This document shows positions 6,336 to 14,991 of a stretch of DNA of 39,968 nucleotides, piece after piece. The DNA lies in assembly GCA_003645535.1 (NCBI GenBank), contig QNFP01000010.1, positions 1 through 39,968 on the forward strand. Direction: 5' to 3'. How positions within the stretch are numbered: the stretch's first letter is position 1; each line of letters begins with the position of its first letter. The notes beneath the pieces were generated by a model. That model saw only the letters and a list, made by a program, of their open reading frames with translations, did no database searches and was not told where the DNA came from. The translations under genes and the position numbers were made by a program. This DNA is from Gammaproteobacteria bacterium (GTDB lineage: Bacteria > Pseudomonadota > Gammaproteobacteria > Pseudomonadales > Porticoccaceae).

Positions 6336-9300
6336 TTGAATAATCGCCAGCAAAGAATCTCCGCTCTACATCGGGCCACCTCGGACAGGATTTTATTCCT
6401 GGACGGTGCCATGGGCACTGTTATTCAACAATATAAACTCAGCGAAGCCGATTATCGCGGTGATCGGCTGGCGAACATTGAGCAGGATCAGGCGGGCAAT
6501 AACGATATATTGACGTTGACCCAGACAGATATTATTCGCGATATCCACCTTGCTTATTTGAAGGCCGGGGCCGATATCATCGAAACTAATACTTTCAATG
6601 CGACGGTTATTTCCCAGGCTGATTTCTCTACCGAGGATCTGGTTTACGAACTCAATTTTGCTGGTGCGCAGGTTGCGCGAGAAGCTGCTGATGAAATCAG
6701 TCGAGCTACTCCTGATAAATTACGTTGGGTAGCAGGTGTTGTTGGGCCGACCAGCCGAACGGCGTCAATCTCATCAGATGTAAACGATCCGGGGGCGCGC
6801 AACACCAGTTTCGGCGAGCTCGCCGACAACTACCGCCTGGCCACCCGCGCTTTGATCGAGGGTGGAGCAGATATCATTTTGATCGAAACTATATTCGATA
6901 CGCTCAATGCCAAAGCTGCTGTCTTTGCTGTGCAGGATGTCTTTACGGAACTCGGTTTAGAGCTGCCGATAATGATTTCTGGAACGATTACCGACGCCAG
7001 TGGCCGCACCCTGTCGGGACAAACACCCGAGGCATTCTGGAACAGCCTGGCTCATGCCCGCCCTTTTTCTATCGGCTTTAACTGTGCACTGGGTGCTCGC
7101 CAATTGCGCCCCCATATCGAAGAATTGGCGAAAGTTTGTCCGCTACCGGTAAGTGCCCATCCCAATGCGGGACTCCCCAATGAATTTGGCGAATATGATG
7201 AACAGCCACATGAAACAGCTGAAATCATCGCTGAGTTTGCCCGGGACCAGCTGGTCAATATTGTTGGTGGTTGTTGTGGCACAACGCCGGAGCATATCGA
7301 AGCTATTTGCGCGGCTGTCGGCAAATTTAAACCACGCTCATTACCGGATATCGCTCCGGCGTGCCGGCTTGCGGGGCTAGAACCTTTTAATATCACCAGC
7401 GACTCGCTATTCGTGAATATAGGCGAGCGGTGTAATGTCACCGGCTCGGCACGTTTTAAACGACTAATACTTGAGGACGATTACGACACGGCATTGAGCG
7501 TTGCGCGGGATCAGGTCGAAAGCGGCGCGCAGATTATCGACGTTAATGTTGACGAAGGTATGCTGGACGGCGAGGTGGCAATGACTACCTTCCTTAAACT
7601 GGTGGCGTCGGAACCCGATATTTCCAGAATCCCATTGATGGTCGATTCCTCCAGGTGGAGCGTTATAGAAAAGGGTCTGCAGTGTATCCAGGGTAAACCC
7701 ATCGTCAATTCCATCAGCCTGAAAGAAGGAGAGGAAGTTTTTTTGGCGCAGGCCAGGCTTTGTCTTCGCTATGGTGCTGCCGTTGTGGTAATGGCCTTTG
7801 ATACCGACGGACAGGCAGATAATTTGCAGCGTCGCATCGACATCTGTCAACGCAGTTACCAGTTGCTGGTCAATAAGGTGGGTTTTGCAACCGAAGATAT
7901 TATTTTTGATCCCAATGTTTTTGCCGTCGCGACCGGCATCGAAGAACACAATAATTATGCCGTGGACTTCATAGAGGCGACCGCCTGGATTAACGCGCAA
8001 TTGCCGGGCGCACTGATTTCCGGTGGTATCAGTAACGTGTCATTTTCGTTTCGCGGTAACAATGCGGTACGGGAGGCCATTCATTCGGTGTTTTTATACC
8101 ATGCTATTCGCTCAGGGCTTAGCATGGGTATCGTTAATGCTGGTCAGCTTGCTGTTTACGATAATCTGCCGGATTCACTGCGTGAAGCGGTCGAGGCAGT
8201 TATCCTCAATAAATCTTCAGAGGCTACCGAAAATTTGCTCGAAATTGCCGAACAATATCGTGGAGATGGCGGAACGCAAACCAAAAAGGAAGATCTACAA
8301 TGGCGACAATGGCCGGTTGCGAAGCGCCTTGAACACGCGCTGGTAAAGGGTATAACCACTTACATAGAAGAGGATAGTGAAGCAGCACGACAGGAAGCAG
8401 AGCGTCCACTGCATGTTATCGAAGGGCCGCTGATGGATGGCATGAATGTCGTTGGCGACCTGTTTGGCGAGGGCAAGATGTTCTTGCCTCAGGTGGTCAA
8501 GTCAGCCCGTGTTATGAAGCAGGCAGTAGCCTACCTGCAACCTTATGTCGAAGCAGAAAAGCAGGATGGTGCCCGCAGCAGTAACGGTAAAATCCTGATG
8601 GCGACTGTTAAAGGCGATGTACACGACATTGGTAAAAATATCGTCGGTGTGGTGCTGCAGTGTAATAACTTTGAGGTCATCGACCTCGGCGTCATGGTGC
8701 CCAGCGAGCGGATACTGGAAACGGCCAGGCAGGAAAATGTCGATATTATTGGTCTGTCCGGCCTTATTACACCGTCGCTGGACGAAATGGTTCATGTTGC
8801 CGGGGAGATGGAGCGTCAGGGTTTTAATTTACCTTTGCTGATTGGTGGTGCGACTACTTCGAAAGCACATACCGCTGTAAAAATTGATCCTCAATATCAT
8901 CGCGCACAGGCAATTTACGTGGCTGACGCTTCGCGCGCTGTGGGCGTGGCCAGTAAGCTGATTAACCAGGACTCACGCAAGGATTACTACGCTGACATCA
9001 GCGCTGAATATGAAAAAGTGCGTGAGCGCCGAGCGAAGCGCCAACCTCGCGATAAAGTCGTGTCCTATGAACAGGCTATGGATCAGGGCCTGGCAATTGA
9101 CTGGTCGAATTATACGCCGCATCAGCCTCGGCAGTTGGGTGTTCAGGTCTTTTACGACTACCCGATGGCCGAACTGGTCGCCACCATTGACTGGACGCCC
9201 TTTTTTATTACCTGGAATCTGATCGGCAAATATCCAAAAATCCTGGATGATGAAGTGATCGGAGAGGCGGCACGAAATCTCTTTGACGATGCGCAGGTTA

Positions 9301-10085
9301 TGCTCAGGGATCTTGTAGAAAATAAACGCCTGCAAGCCAATGGTGTCATAGGCCTATGGCCGGCTAACTGCGTTAACCATGATGACATTGAAGTTTACTC
9401 TGACGATTCACGCAGCAAAGTTATTGCTACGCTACATCACCTTCGCCAACAACTCAGAAAATCGAGCGAATCAGACGCGCTGCTGTCATTGGCCGATTTT
9501 ATAATGCCCAAAGAGCTTAATAAAATTGATTATATTGGCGGCTTTGCGGTAACCACTGGTATCCGGGCGGATGAACTCGCTGCAGAATATGAAGCCAGGG
9601 GCGATGATTACAATGCGATCATGGTCAAAGCCCTCGCTGACCGGTTGGCAGAATCGTTTGCCGAACACATGCACCATAAAGTTCGCACCGAACTATGGGC
9701 ATATGCTGTCGACGAAACATTGAATAATGAAGAACTCATTAAGGAAAAATATCAGGGTATTCGCCCGGCACCAGGGTACCCTGCCTGTCCTGATCATACT
9801 GAGAAAACAGCACTTTTTGAGTTGTTAAATGCTGAAAAAAATACCGGTATTAAGTTAACTGAAAACCACGCAATGCACCCTGCTGCATCAATCAGCGGCT
9901 GGTATTTTAGCCATCCAGAGTCGCGTTATTTCAATGTGGGCAAAATTTATCCTGATCAGGTAGCCAGCCTTGCGCAACGTAAAGGTATTGCGGCATCCCA
10001 GGTTGAGCGCGAATTGAACGCCATACTCGCCTACCAACCTGGATCAGACAACGATAAAAAAACAGTGGGAAATATAGATAATTAG
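6336..10085 (+). CDS. metH: Cobalamin-dependent methionine synthase MetH
   Basis: MetH transfers a methyl group from 5-methyltetrahydrofolate to homocysteine through cobalamin. All modules are present in order. The homocysteine domain starts at LDGAMGT and has zinc cysteines in FNCALGA and GGCCGTT. The folate (pterin-binding) domain includes [16 protein letters not shown]. The cap is followed by the B12 domain with DVHDIGKN, whose histidine is the lower cobalt ligand. The C-terminal activation (SAM-binding) domain includes [15 protein letters not shown]. The length of 1249 is close to the E. coli enzyme (about 1227). The start is a TTG with a weak ribosome-binding site, and I see no better ATG nearby. 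No cobalamin riboswitch was recognised in the short leader. It shares methionine supply with the downstream sulfite reductase. Confidence 0.97.
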
Positions 10086-10133: not shown

Positions 10134-10155
10134 AAAAAAGGCAGCGCCGGCTGCC
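10134..10155 (-). terminator. Intrinsic terminator of the small membrane-protein gene
   Basis: Read on the minus strand this is GGCAGC-CGGC-GCTGCC followed by TTTTTT, a 6-bp GC-rich stem with a four-base loop and a U-tract. It lies 24 bp after the stop codon of the 37-residue ORF and points in that gene's direction. Confidence 0.8.
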
Positions 10156-10178
10156 CTCCAGATATAGCGTTAATTAAA

Positions 10179-10292
10179 CTACATGCGGCTTAACCAGACC
10201 ACTACGCTTGTAATTACCACCGCTATCAATGCCAGCGCTGCCATCGCGTCAGCAAAACCGTCTTCATCTCTACCGGTATTATCTTCACTCAT
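10179..10292 (-). CDS. Small single-pass membrane protein, 37 residues
   Basis: This gene is not in the ORF track. The minus strand encodes 37 residues: an acidic N-terminus (MSEDNTGRDEDGFADAMA), then one hydrophobic helix (ALALIAVVITSVVVWLSRM). A full AGGAGGA Shine-Dalgarno sequence lies eight bases before the ATG, and an intrinsic terminator follows the stop. Together these make a real gene likely. The charge pattern suggests an acidic N-terminal tail and the helix in the inner membrane, but the topology is not certain. I do not recognise a family. It stands alone on the minus strand between metH and cysI, and its promoter region is shared with cysI. Confidence 0.75.
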   Translation of the reverse strand: MSEDNTGRDEDGFADAMAALALIAVVITSVVVWLSRM

Positions 10293-10402
10293 ACTGCACT
10301 TCCTCCTACGTTTGCCCATTTAAAAGCCGCGCATTCTATCAATATGTCTTTCAGGTGTCTGCCCTTATTACCATTTCCAACGACATTATAAATAAACAGT
10401 TT

Positions 10403-10535: not shown

Positions 10536-12191
10536 ATGTATATATATGACCATCACGATAAAACCCTGTTAAGGGAACGCGTTACCCAGTTTCGCAGGCA
10601 AACCGAATCCTTTCTGGCCGGGGATCTAGCAGAAGATGAATTCCTGCCCCTGCGTCTGCAAAATGGTCTGTATATTCAGCGCCTGGCGCCTATGCTACGC
10701 ATTAACATCCCTTACGGTATGTTATCGTCTAATCAGTTACGCAAGCTCGCACATATCACGCGAACTTACGACAAGGGTTATGCACATTTTACGACTCGAC
10801 AAAATATCCAGCTCAACTGGCCTCAACTTGAGGAAGTACCGGATATTCTTGCTGAACTCGCTGAAGTCGATATGCATGCTATCCAGAGCAGCGGCAATTG
10901 CATTCGCAATATAACCTCCGACGAGTTCGCCGGGATAAGTACGGATGAAACTGAGGATCCTCGCCCCTGGTGCGAAATTATTCGCCAATGGTCAACACTA
11001 CATCCGGAATTCGCATTTTTGCCACGCAAGTTCAAGATAGCTGTTACTGGCTCTGAGGGTGATCGCGCCGCTACCCAGGTTCATGACATCGGCCTGCAAT
11101 TAGTGAAAGGCCCCAGCAGCGAAATCGGCTTCCAGGTTCTAGTCGGCGGAGGAATGGGCCGCACCCCTGTGATCGGCACCGTGATCAAAAACTTCCTGCC
11201 CGCTGTACACCTGCTCACTTACCTGGAGGCCATATTACGGGTGTATAACCGTTACGGCCGTCGGGACAACAAATACAAAGCCCGTATCAAAATACTTGTA
11301 AAAGCATGGACACCTGAGGTTTTCACTCAAAAAGTAGAAGAAGAGTGGCTTCGCGCAAAAAATGGCCCCGCAACATTAACAGATACCGAAATTGCCCGGG
11401 CAAAATCATTTTTCACTGCGCCAGCTTATGAAAAAAATACCGACTGCCCCGACCAACTGACAATGCCAGAGCAGCCTGTTGCCTTTACACGGTGGTGTGA
11501 CAGAAATGTAAAGCAGCACAAAACACCAGGTTATTGTGCTGTTTTTCTTTCCCTAAAGCCCACCGGTGTCGCCCCAGGTGATGTCACCGAACAACAGCTG
11601 GAATCCATTGCGGAACTTGCTGACAACTACAGTTTTGGTGAAGTCCGCGTCACACATCAGCAAAATGTGGTGTTGGCCGATGTCAAACAAAAGGATTTAC
11701 CAGCGTTGTGGGTTGAGGCAAAGAAAATGGGTTTTGCAACACCGAACGTAGGTACGTTAACGGACATGATTTGCTGCCCCGGTGGTGATTTCTGCTCACT
11801 GGCCAATGCCAAATCAATTCCGGTGGCGGAAGCAATTCAGCGATGTTTTGATGACATGGACTACCTCTATGACATTGGCGACGTCAGCCTCAATATCTCA
11901 GGATGCATGAATGCCTGCGGACACCACCATATTGGTAATATTGGCATTCTCGGTGTCGATAAAAAGGGCCTGGAGTTTTATCAGATCCAGCTCGGTGGAA
12001 GTGCCGGCAGCGATGCAGCACTTGGCAGCGTACTCGGGCCTTCTTTCTTTGCCAGTGAAGTACCGGAGGTAATAGCGAAAATTCTGCAGGTCTATGTAGA
12101 CCATCGAATTGACGGCGAACGTTTTTTCGACACACAACGACGTATCGGTATAACCCCTTTCAAGGAGTGCATCTATGCAAAAGCTGCTTGA
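10536..12191 (+). CDS. cysI: Assimilatory sulfite (nitrite/sulfite) reductase hemoprotein, CysI type
   Basis: This enzyme reduces sulfite to sulfide with six electrons, using siroheme and a [4Fe-4S] cluster. The cluster cysteines are seen in CCPGGDFCSLA and ISGCMNACGHHH. The two ferredoxin-like half-domains and the siroheme-binding repeats are present (YDKGYAHFTTRQNIQLNWP, RKFKIAVTGSEGDRAA, VLVGGGMGRTP). The 551 residues closely resemble the Pseudomonas one-subunit enzyme (MYVYDEYD-like N-terminus) rather than the enterobacterial CysJI pair. Its electron donor is not visible here. The last 17 bp overlap the DUF934 gene, indicating an operon with translational coupling. Nitrite reduction is an alternative, but the DUF934 partner favours sulfite. 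Confidence 0.93.
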   Translation: MYIYDHHDKTLLRERVTQFRRQTESFLAGDLAEDEFLPLRLQNGLYIQRLAPMLRINIPYGMLSSNQLRKLAHITRTYDKGYAHFTTRQNIQLNWPQLEEVPDILAELAEVDMHAIQSSGNCIRNITSDEFAGISTDETEDPRPWCEIIRQWSTLHPEFAFLPRKFKIAVTGSEGDRAATQVHDIGLQLVKGPSSEIGFQVLVGGGMGRTPVIGTVIKNFLPAVHLLTYLEAILRVYNRYGRRDNKYKARIKILVKAWTPEVFTQKVEEEWLRAKNGPATLTDTEIARAKSFFTAPAYEKNTDCPDQLTMPEQPVAFTRWCDRNVKQHKTPGYCAVFLSLKPTGVAPGDVTEQQLESIAELADNYSFGEVRVTHQQNVVLADVKQKDLPALWVEAKKMGFATPNVGTLTDMICCPGGDFCSLANAKSIPVAEAIQRCFDDMDYLYDIGDVSLNISGCMNACGHHHIGNIGILGVDKKGLEFYQIQLGGSAGSDAALGSVLGPSFFASEVPEVIAKILQVYVDHRIDGERFFDTQRRIGITPFKECIYAKAA

Positions 12192-12687
12192 TAAAGATGG
12201 CAATGTGCTAAGCGAAGACCCCTGGCAGATTATGCCTCGAGGCTTTGACGGAATGTTAAACAGCGACCATATGTTGGTGCCAGTGCAATACTGGCTGGAT
12301 ACTCTCCCAGATAGTGATGCTAACTCGGTCTGTAATGATCAACATGCGAGTGGTATATGGCTAGATAGCGATATCGAACTTGAGCCTCTCGCTGATCATA
12401 TATCTACATGGGATTGTATCGGCATTCATTTTCAGACATTTATGGATGGCCGGGGATTTTCTCTGGCGAGGCTTCTCAGGGAGCAATATAATTACCGGGG
12501 CGAGCTCAGGGCCTTTGGTAATATTATCCCCGACCAGTTTTACTACCTCGCCCGCTGTGGGTTCGATACGTTTTTGCTTGAAGATTACAGCCCGGATTTT
12601 GACCCACTGCCCTACCTCAACAATTTCACTGTAAGCTACCAGGGTAGCGTCGATCAGCCGCAACCACTATTCAGACGCAGAACCTGA
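12175..12687 (+). CDS. DUF934 family protein, partner of CysI
   Basis: The 170-residue protein has the DUF934 core, including HISTWDCIGIHFQTFMDGRG, FSLARLLREQYNYRGELRAF and RCGFDTFLLE. The family is usually encoded directly after Pseudomonas-type cysI and is thought to support sulfite reduction, though its biochemical role is unproven as far as I know. The ATG lies inside the end of cysI with AAGGAG ten bases before it. No membrane segment or signal peptide is seen, so it is cytoplasmic. The downstream sequence is T-rich but shows no clear terminator stem. Confidence 0.9.
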   Translation: MQKLLDKDGNVLSEDPWQIMPRGFDGMLNSDHMLVPVQYWLDTLPDSDANSVCNDQHASGIWLDSDIELEPLADHISTWDCIGIHFQTFMDGRGFSLARLLREQYNYRGELRAFGNIIPDQFYYLARCGFDTFLLEDYSPDFDPLPYLNNFTVSYQGSVDQPQPLFRRRT

Positions 12688-12761: not shown

Positions 12762-13928
12762 GTGGACGACACTGTATTTCACTCGTTTTTCCTCATATTT
12801 ACTGGCGCAGCTGTGGTTGCTTCAATGGCTCTATACGGACGCCAGCCCATGCTTGTGGCCTATATTGTGCTCGGAGGCCTGCTCGGGCCTTACGGCTCCG
12901 GACTCGTTCCCGACGTCAAGCTAATCGCTGACATTTCCCACATTGGCATTATCTTCCTTTTATTTCTGCTCGGCCTTGATATGCAACCTCAGGCCCTGTT
13001 TGGCGTTTTCAAAAAAGTCACCCTTGTCACGCTCATCAGCGCAATAATTTTTGCCATGGTTGGCTATGGAGTTGGGTACCTGTTTGGCTTCACTCAGCTA
13101 GAAAACATAATCATCGGCAGCGCCATGATGTTTTCCAGCACCATAATCGGGATAAAACTATTACCCACAACCATCTTGCACCACCGTCATGTCGGCGAAA
13201 TGATGATCGGCATGTTATTGGTCCAGGATTTTCTTGCCATCTTTGTGTTGCTTATATTACTTAGCGGCGGTGACGGTTCGGTAGATGTGGGACAGATTGG
13301 AATCGCCCTGCTGGCACTGCCCATTTTGGTTGGCCTGTGCGTCACAGCCGTGCGCTATTTATTACTACCTTTATTTACACGGTTTGATCGTATGGGGGAA
13401 TATGTTTTTCTGCTTGCCATCGGCTGGTGTCTCGGCGTTGCAGAGCTCGCCGAATTAGTCAATTTATCCCGAGAGATAGGTGCTTTTATCGCCGGCATCA
13501 CCATTGCTACCAGCCCAATAGCAAAACATATTGCACTTAGTCTAAAACCGCTACGCGACTTTTTTCTTATCCTCTTCTTTTTCTCTCTGGGTGCGCAGTT
13601 TAACCTGACTCTGCTGCCGGACATCATTGCACCAGCTCTATTGCTGGGCGGCAGTATGTTGGTGATAAAGCCTCTGGTCTTTCGCTTTTTGCTGCGCCAG
13701 CAAAGCGAGAAAAATGCCCTGGCATGGGATCTTGGCTTCAGGCTAGGTCAGATTAGTGAGTTTTCACTGTTAATTGCCTATGTGGCGTTCAGTGCATCCT
13801 TAATCAGTAACCTGGCATCTCACCTAATCCAGGCAGCCGCAATCCTGACCTTCCTGTTATCAAGCTATGTTGTGGTATTAAATTTCCCCAATCCTATCGC
13901 TATCAAAGAGGAACTACGTAGAGACTAA
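12762..13928 (+). CDS. CPA2-family monovalent cation:proton antiporter (KefB/KefC-like membrane domain)
   Basis: An inner-membrane exchanger of 388 residues with about 12 hydrophobic segments. Typical features are the early AYIVLGGLLGPYGSGLVPD and DISHIGIIFLLFLLGLDMQP motifs, and later LVQDFLAIFVLL and LSREIGAFIAGITIATSP. Unlike KefB/KefC it has no C-terminal RCK/TrkA-N domain, so glutathione or nucleotide gating through that domain is not expected. The start is a GTG with a weak GGA upstream. The ATG five bases before it is out of frame. The gene converges with sohB, only 22 bp away. The ion specificity (K+ or Na+) cannot be decided. Confidence 0.88.
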   Translation: MDDTVFHSFFLIFTGAAVVASMALYGRQPMLVAYIVLGGLLGPYGSGLVPDVKLIADISHIGIIFLLFLLGLDMQPQALFGVFKKVTLVTLISAIIFAMVGYGVGYLFGFTQLENIIIGSAMMFSSTIIGIKLLPTTILHHRHVGEMMIGMLLVQDFLAIFVLLILLSGGDGSVDVGQIGIALLALPILVGLCVTAVRYLLLPLFTRFDRMGEYVFLLAIGWCLGVAELAELVNLSREIGAFIAGITIATSPIAKHIALSLKPLRDFFLILFFFSLGAQFNLTLLPDIIAPALLLGGSMLVIKPLVFRFLLRQQSEKNALAWDLGFRLGQISEFSLLIAYVAFSASLISNLASHLIQAAAILTFLLSSYVVVLNFPNPIAIKEELRRD

Positions 13929-13950: not shown

Positions 13951-14991
13951 TCAGAAGTAGTGATGAGATTTTGATAAACGGTTGATCCATCGCACCAGCA
14001 AACGATCGCTTGTTTCTTCGACCGCAATACCAAATTTTTCTGGCAAGGTTTTTTTCTCTATATAATGTACTTCAAAGACACTGCGATCCTTCGCCAGGGC
14101 TGTTAAATATTCATCACTGGTTTTAATGTCATCTACCAGACCTATTTGTTGCGCTCTGCTACCGTACCAAATCTCACCAGTAGCTACCTCCTCGATATCC
14201 AGTTTTTGTCTTCGTTCAGCAACGTATTCTTTAAACAAATCATGAATATCTTCCATATCCTGACGAAACTTATCTCTACCTTCTTCAGTATTTTCTCCCA
14301 ATACTGTCAGGGTACGCTTGTATTTGCCTGCCGTAATCAGCTCGACGTCCACATCATGACGCTTTAACAGCCTGTTAATATTGGGGATTTGGGCAACGAC
14401 GCCAATAGAGCCGATAATAGCAAAGGGTGCAGCCACAACTTTGTCCGCCACACACGCCATCATATAGCCACCGCTCGCTGCAACCTTATCGACGCAGATG
14501 GTTAACGAAATATTCTGCTTTCTAATTCTGTCCAGCTGACTAGCTGCAAGTCCATAACTGTGAACCATACCGCCGCTGCTTTCCAGCTTAACAACCACTT
14601 CATCATCTGATTTCACCTGTGCAAGTATCGCCGTTATTTCTTCACGTAGGGCAGCTACCGCCGAAGCCCGTAAATCACCATGAAAATTTAATACAAACGT
14701 CCTTCCTCCCTGAGACTCAGCAATATCCTTCGTTGTTTTTTTTGCGGATAGCTTATCTCTCTTTTTCCTCTCCTTTATTGCACTTTTTTTCTCATGGGGA
14801 GGCAATATAGATTCTGCAAAAGTATCCTCGTTTTTTTTTAATTTTTCACTAAGAGATGTTACTTCAATATGTCCCTTATCTTTTGGTTTTGCCCTGGATG
14901 CACCGGCTATCAGCGCAATAAGCACTCCAAAACTGAGCAAAACCGTTATTATCTTTGCCAGAAAAAGACCGTAATCAGTTACAAAATCCAA
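13951..14991 (-). CDS. sohB: Inner-membrane serine peptidase SohB
   Basis: A 346-residue S49-family peptidase. An N-terminal membrane helix (residues about 9-30, LFLAKIITVLLSFGVLIALI) precedes a charged Lys/Glu-rich linker, which is followed by the SohB-specific N-terminal part and the peptidase fold from about residue 95. The nucleophile is the serine in DKVAASGGYMMACVAD, and the general base is the lysine in ITAGKYKRTLTVLGEN. The active site probably faces the periplasm. AGGAG precedes the ATG. It is followed on the same strand by no close gene. It may be co-transcribed with the upstream unknown membrane protein, which is 32 bp away. Confidence 0.95.
   Translation of the reverse strand: MDFVTDYGLFLAKIITVLLSFGVLIALIAGASRAKPKDKGHIEVTSLSEKLKKNEDTFAESILPPHEKKSAIKERKKRDKLSAKKTTKDIAESQGGRTFVLNFHGDLRASAVAALREEITAILAQVKSDDEVVVKLESSGGMVHSYGLAASQLDRIRKQNISLTICVDKVAASGGYMMACVADKVVAAPFAIIGSIGVVAQIPNINRLLKRHDVDVELITAGKYKRTLTVLGENTEEGRDKFRQDMEDIHDLFKEYVAERRQKLDIEEVATGEIWYGSRAQQIGLVDDIKTSDEYLTALAKDRSVFEVHYIEKKTLPEKFGIAVEETSDRLLVRWINRLSKSHHYF

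Follow-up and report, generated by a model that had tools for sequence, protein, structure and literature searches.

The 450-nt gap between metH and cysI in the window, by which we mean the whole 39,968-nt stretch of a Porticoccaceae (Gammaproteobacteria) genome analysed here, contains on its minus strand the reading frame of what is, judged by its conservation, a genuine stand-alone gene for a member of a 37-residue protein family. As regards function, the reading that we prefer, with a probability of roughly 0.6, is that of a single-span inner-membrane accessory protein, constitutively produced and docked on a larger membrane partner, for which the peptidase SohB would be a candidate only. 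The features to which the argument refers are the following:

6336..10085, plus strand: metH, the convergent neighbour (Pfam Met_synt_B12 and others)
10134..10155, minus strand: putative intrinsic terminator for the small gene (hairpin at 10155-10140 and T6 at 10139-10134)
10179..10292, minus strand: the small gene, unnamed 37-residue membrane protein family (from the reading frame and homologues; stop codon within the coordinates)
10301..10307, minus strand: Shine-Dalgarno site of the small gene, AGGAGGA, read from the sequence, 8 nt upstream of the ATG
10333..10361, minus strand: putative sigma70-type promoter of the small gene (sequence scan; conserved upstream of relatives)
10536..12191, plus strand: cysI, the divergent neighbour (Pfam NIR_SIR)
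12175..12687, plus strand: DUF934 gene, following cysI (Pfam)
12762..13928, plus strand: Na_H_Exchanger-family (KefB-like) antiporter gene, at the end of the cassette (Pfam)
13951..14991, minus strand: sohB-like peptidase S49 gene (Pfam), on the strand of the small gene and upstream of it

The product of the small gene (window 10179-10292, minus strand, 37 residues) is MSEDNTGRDEDGFADAMAALALIAVVITSVVVWLSRM. A mechanical list of open reading frames (ORFs) begins the gene at 10319, nine codons upstream, which would yield 46 residues; the 37-residue start is favoured, because the Shine-Dalgarno site and the homologues both agree with it. A preliminary description of this DNA had placed the ribosome-binding site at a good distance from the start, as the positions listed above bear out, and a purine-rich site occupies the equivalent position in most relatives of the gene. 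It is nonetheless essential to recognize that the length of the frame is no evidence in itself, since dinucleotide shuffling of the 450-nt gap produced an ATG frame of at least 37 codons in 1383 of 2000 cases. What is unusual is the combination: such a frame came together with a strong ribosome site in 10/2000 shuffles and with a membrane helix in 38/2000, and a strong Shine-Dalgarno site plus a membrane helix fell within one ORF in 1/2000. It is conservation, as set out below, that settles that this is a real gene, and with it the preliminary claim that a small membrane-protein gene between metH and cysI had been missed by the ORF track.

The predicted transcription unit is equally compact. 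The putative promoter, which the preliminary description overlooked, consists of a -35 element CAGACA (10361-10356), a 17-nt spacer and an extended -10 element TG-N-TAGAAT (10338-10333). The motif TTGNTANAAT is present in 37/129 upstream regions of the small gene, against 0.6 in shuffles, and the promoter is conserved in relatives, including those devoid of cysI, in which it is unchanged. At the other end, some 23 nt separate the TAA from the stem-loop GGCAGC-CGGC-GCTGCC (10140-10155), which is followed by six T residues (10139-10134) in the direction of the small gene and folds at -17.5 kcal/mol (z = -2.25), so that the own-direction intrinsic terminator proposed earlier holds up for this locus. 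A simple terminator scan of the window did not return it, probably as the T run can join the stem through G-T pairs. As a simple search recovered terminators in just 26/82 homologous loci, this element is not a general feature of the family. Taken from these signals, the transcript would measure about 190 nt and carry a short leader.

The protein is composed of an acidic N-terminal head (residues 1-14), a membrane helix from about residue 15 to 34 and a short C-terminal tail; one helix and an acidic part had thus been correctly noticed before, but the acidic part, formerly taken for a tail, is the N-terminal head, with the helix C-terminal to it. AlphaFold models a single helix over residues 7-36, with pLDDT >90 over most of it. 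Across 129 distinct homologues, the median length is 37 residues and the mean hydropathy of the best 19 residues is 2.6. D15 is found in 129/129 of these proteins, and D11, A16, A18 and W33 are kept in 124, 117, 123 and 126, respectively, giving the family consensus D[SG]x[AV]DAxA-(14 residues)-W[LV]S. A near-invariant Asp and, 18 residues further on, a Trp mark the two edges of the helix predicted to span the membrane. The conserved positions do not define a significant helical face (moment p = 0.08). The head is free to vary in sequence and length, and the frame is kept through these changes in head length.

Pairwise comparison of close relatives (94 pairs) gives 1293 synonymous differences over 2368 sites and 407 non-synonymous differences over 7883 sites, and the differences distribute over the three codon positions as 274/142/1284, which places 1284 of 1700 at the third. 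The resulting pN/pS of about 0.09-0.095 is descriptive and not a test, since the pairs share members and are not phylogenetically independent, although it is very one-sided. The unequal rates, which the preliminary description had named as a check, indicate strong purifying selection on the protein.

With regard to distribution, tblastn with a loose cut-off, the other check named beforehand, detected relatives in 108/145 related genomes, and the gene stays beside cysI and metH across most of the order, divergent from the former and convergent with the latter. A profile search of the order found the protein in 209/392 genomes at E <= 0.1 (191/353 good genomes; about 150 at E < 1e-7). The arrangement divergent from cysI is seen in Pseudomonas protegens, P. 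fluorescens, P. syringae and P. brassicacearum, as well as in Stutzerimonas stutzeri, Marinobacter, Gilvimarinus, Spongiibacter and Porticoccaceae; the gene is not at the cysI site in Burkholderiales, Halomonas, Salinicola, Marinomonas and one Oleispira MAG. A second order, with genomes of 0.7-1.8 Mb, carries the protein in 76/101 genomes (33/39 good ones) and in all 18 genera, and a further gammaproteobacterial family outside the order carries it in 10/14 genomes. In a class-wide draw (n=274), 10 genomes match, 8 of them outside the order and two of these weakly, and in a phylum-wide draw (n=249) the protein occurs solely within the window's own order; outside that order it is, by these draws, rare. 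The plasmid collection yielded no match. Overall, conservation indicates that hundreds of marine and Pseudomonas-type bacteria retain the family and that selection on it is strong.

These proteins have no evident counterpart among described families. Searches of Pfam, NCBIfam and the PDB with single members and profiles gave chance-level matches only, and 59 family members compared with the Pfam and NCBIfam libraries had no significant match. Open-access papers were searched for small proteins next to cysI/metH or sohB, and none was found to describe this one. Some members may well appear in RefSeq under the label 'hypothetical protein'. In terms of build, however, the protein is of a familiar type. 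AcrZ, MgtS and YohP-type proteins are single-span small membrane proteins, some of which have large membrane partners; the protein resembles them in its single span, whereas no sequence relation was found. More generally, it corresponds to the single-span membrane microproteins, a class based on function and not on homology, in having no more than 50 residues and one hydrophobic helix, and in being conserved under purifying selection and presumably translated. The family is, as far as these searches tell, an undescribed one of this known kind. CydX/CbdX, the 37-residue subunit of cytochrome bd oxidase (PMC4325964), is alike in its length of about 37 residues, its one membrane helix and its having long been missed by annotation. 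Unlike CydX, the small gene has no cydAB next to it in the loci examined (the neighbours in the loci read being sohB, acuI, cysI, kefB, metH, nadA, ccm or others) but stands alone with its own predicted promoter, and the 59 members gave no significant CydX-family match in Pfam or NCBIfam. CcoM, a 36-residue subunit of the cbb3 oxidase of Pseudomonas stutzeri (PMC10433244), is similar in length, in its one helix and in its Pseudomonas host; in contrast, the small gene also occurs in a genome (G307) without a CcmF match. In a copy of the PDB that may lack the CcoM chain, neither the homologue from Stutzerimonas nor the profile of the family found a related chain, and CcoM is compared here by description.

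The stretch from D15 to W33 approximates one membrane thickness and there are small residues near D15. Small accessory subunits such as CydX are built in this way, hence the proposal of a docking accessory protein. The small gene would be transcribed constitutively from its own sigma70 promoter, the transcript in this locus presumably ending at its own terminator. From the distribution of charge, the head, which is charged, would be cytoplasmic and the tail, short and uncharged, periplasmic. The protein probably lacks enzymatic activity, the head being too variable for catalysis. Instead, the helix may dock on a larger inner-membrane protein, with the small residues A16 and A18, together with D11/D15, at the interface, and act as an accessory or stabilising subunit in the manner of CydX or AcrZ.

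Which protein this partner might be can be approached through gene order. Wherever both genes are in range (44/44 loci), the small gene has sohB upstream on its own strand; because these loci are related by descent, and hence not phylogenetically independent, and because sohB is common, this linkage is a lead and not proof. The interval between the two genes usually holds either the cysI-DUF934-antiporter cassette on the opposite strand, as in the window, or an acuI-like gene, and shrinks to 107 nt in genome G017 and 147 nt in G307. The usual arrangement in the second order, sohB followed by the acuI-like gene and the small gene almost without gaps, is an apparent operon. Elsewhere the genes are further apart: about 6 kb in G636, and 48 kb on the same contig in G566, a genome whose one antiporter match is distant and in which acuI, cysI and metH have no match. 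AcuI was consequently rejected as an obligatory partner, given that G566 carries the small protein. In contrast, sohB was found in the tested small-protein genomes lacking the other neighbours, and is, in the gene orders compared, the most persistent neighbour found across two orders. It also occurs at cysI loci without the small gene (L161 and L184), so SohB is not everywhere in need of the small protein. On gene order, SohB, a membrane-anchored S49 peptidase, is the best single candidate for the partner, even so a tentative and rather doubtful one. Slightly more speculative still is the idea that the protein may be the founding member of a hitherto undescribed family of SohB accessory subunits which would control the assembly or substrate access of this peptidase and be kept even in very streamlined bacteria.

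Among the other explanations, the one that survives best gives the protein a part in cytochrome c maturation or in a c-type respiratory complex, in the way of CcmD or CcoM. It arises from seven loci of one gammaproteobacterial family outside the order, in which ccmH-ccmI or ccmC-ccmE precede the small gene on its own strand; in several of these, it is within a few tens of nt of the ccm genes. Furthermore, CcmH is above the cut-off in 12/13 tested small-protein genomes and CcmF is present in 344/353 good genomes of the order, although the near universality of CcmF renders its co-occurrence with the small protein uninformative, and genomes that lack the small protein have Ccm just as often. Moreover, the 3-8 kb loci inspected in Pseudomonadales and the second order show no ccm genes beside the small gene, and G307 has the small protein (locus L064) while showing no CcmF match and a sub-cut-off CcmH match. 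This genome (5.2 Mb, 100% complete, 2 contigs) differs in its CcmF/CcmH state from nearly all of the order. We consider this explanation unlikely.

Far less probable, and largely refuted, is the sulfur or methionine role guessed at in the preliminary description, according to which the protein would help CysI, MetH or the KefB-like antiporter. The prevailing position of the gene in the order, between cysI and metH, speaks for it. However, among 21 genomes in which different genes flank the small one, 16 are without cysI, 8 without metH and 4 without an antiporter match, and G017 and G636 keep the protein in the absence of all three; the promoter is unaltered where cysI is missing, and Betaproteobacteria (Burkholderiales) possess cysI-DUF934 with no small gene beside cysI. 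Where cysI-DUF934 is missing, the small gene faces the antiporter gene or comes after sohB. Sulfite reductase, methionine synthase and the KefB-like antiporter were thus rejected as obligatory partners, since genomes without them keep the protein. As gene order indicates, the adjacency to metH and cysI reflects an old arrangement in which both are dispensable for the small gene. Several particulars of these loci can be recorded alongside. The DUF934 gene overlaps cysI by 17 nt, a pairing kept in the cysI loci read, Burkholderiales included. Seven loci, each from a different genome among the relatives of the window's family, have lost cysI-DUF934 and kept the KefB-like antiporter gene that comes after them; no cysI was found in these seven genomes, which are therefore predicted to depend on reduced sulfur. 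In nine loci from part of the window's family, nadA comes close after the small gene on the same strand and may be co-transcribed with it.

A type I toxin-like peptide is more improbable again: the protein is indeed a small hydrophobic peptide with one membrane helix, and its short predicted transcript has its own promoter and terminator, yet its distribution is not the sporadic and often multicopy one of such toxins, as genome G000 has one copy and the gene is conserved order-wide at a fixed place under strong purifying selection; its strong Shine-Dalgarno site and short leader also speak against a toxin. A search for a conserved antisense RNA, confined to Rfam, found none. Least credible of all is a small regulatory RNA or cysI leader region with an incidental open frame, which a transcript of the predicted size would resemble in RNA-seq, but which is at odds with the prevalence of third-position changes, the preservation of the frame in heads of different length and the absence of an Rfam family.

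The protein belongs to a 37-residue type that has no Pfam or NCBIfam family and is kept in Pseudomonas, Marinobacter, related gammaproteobacteria and an order of small genomes. Its distribution and the selection acting on it suggest a housekeeping membrane role left unnamed by automatic annotation, and thanks to named relatives in tractable genera, with the gene in a fixed place, the family is open to genetic study.
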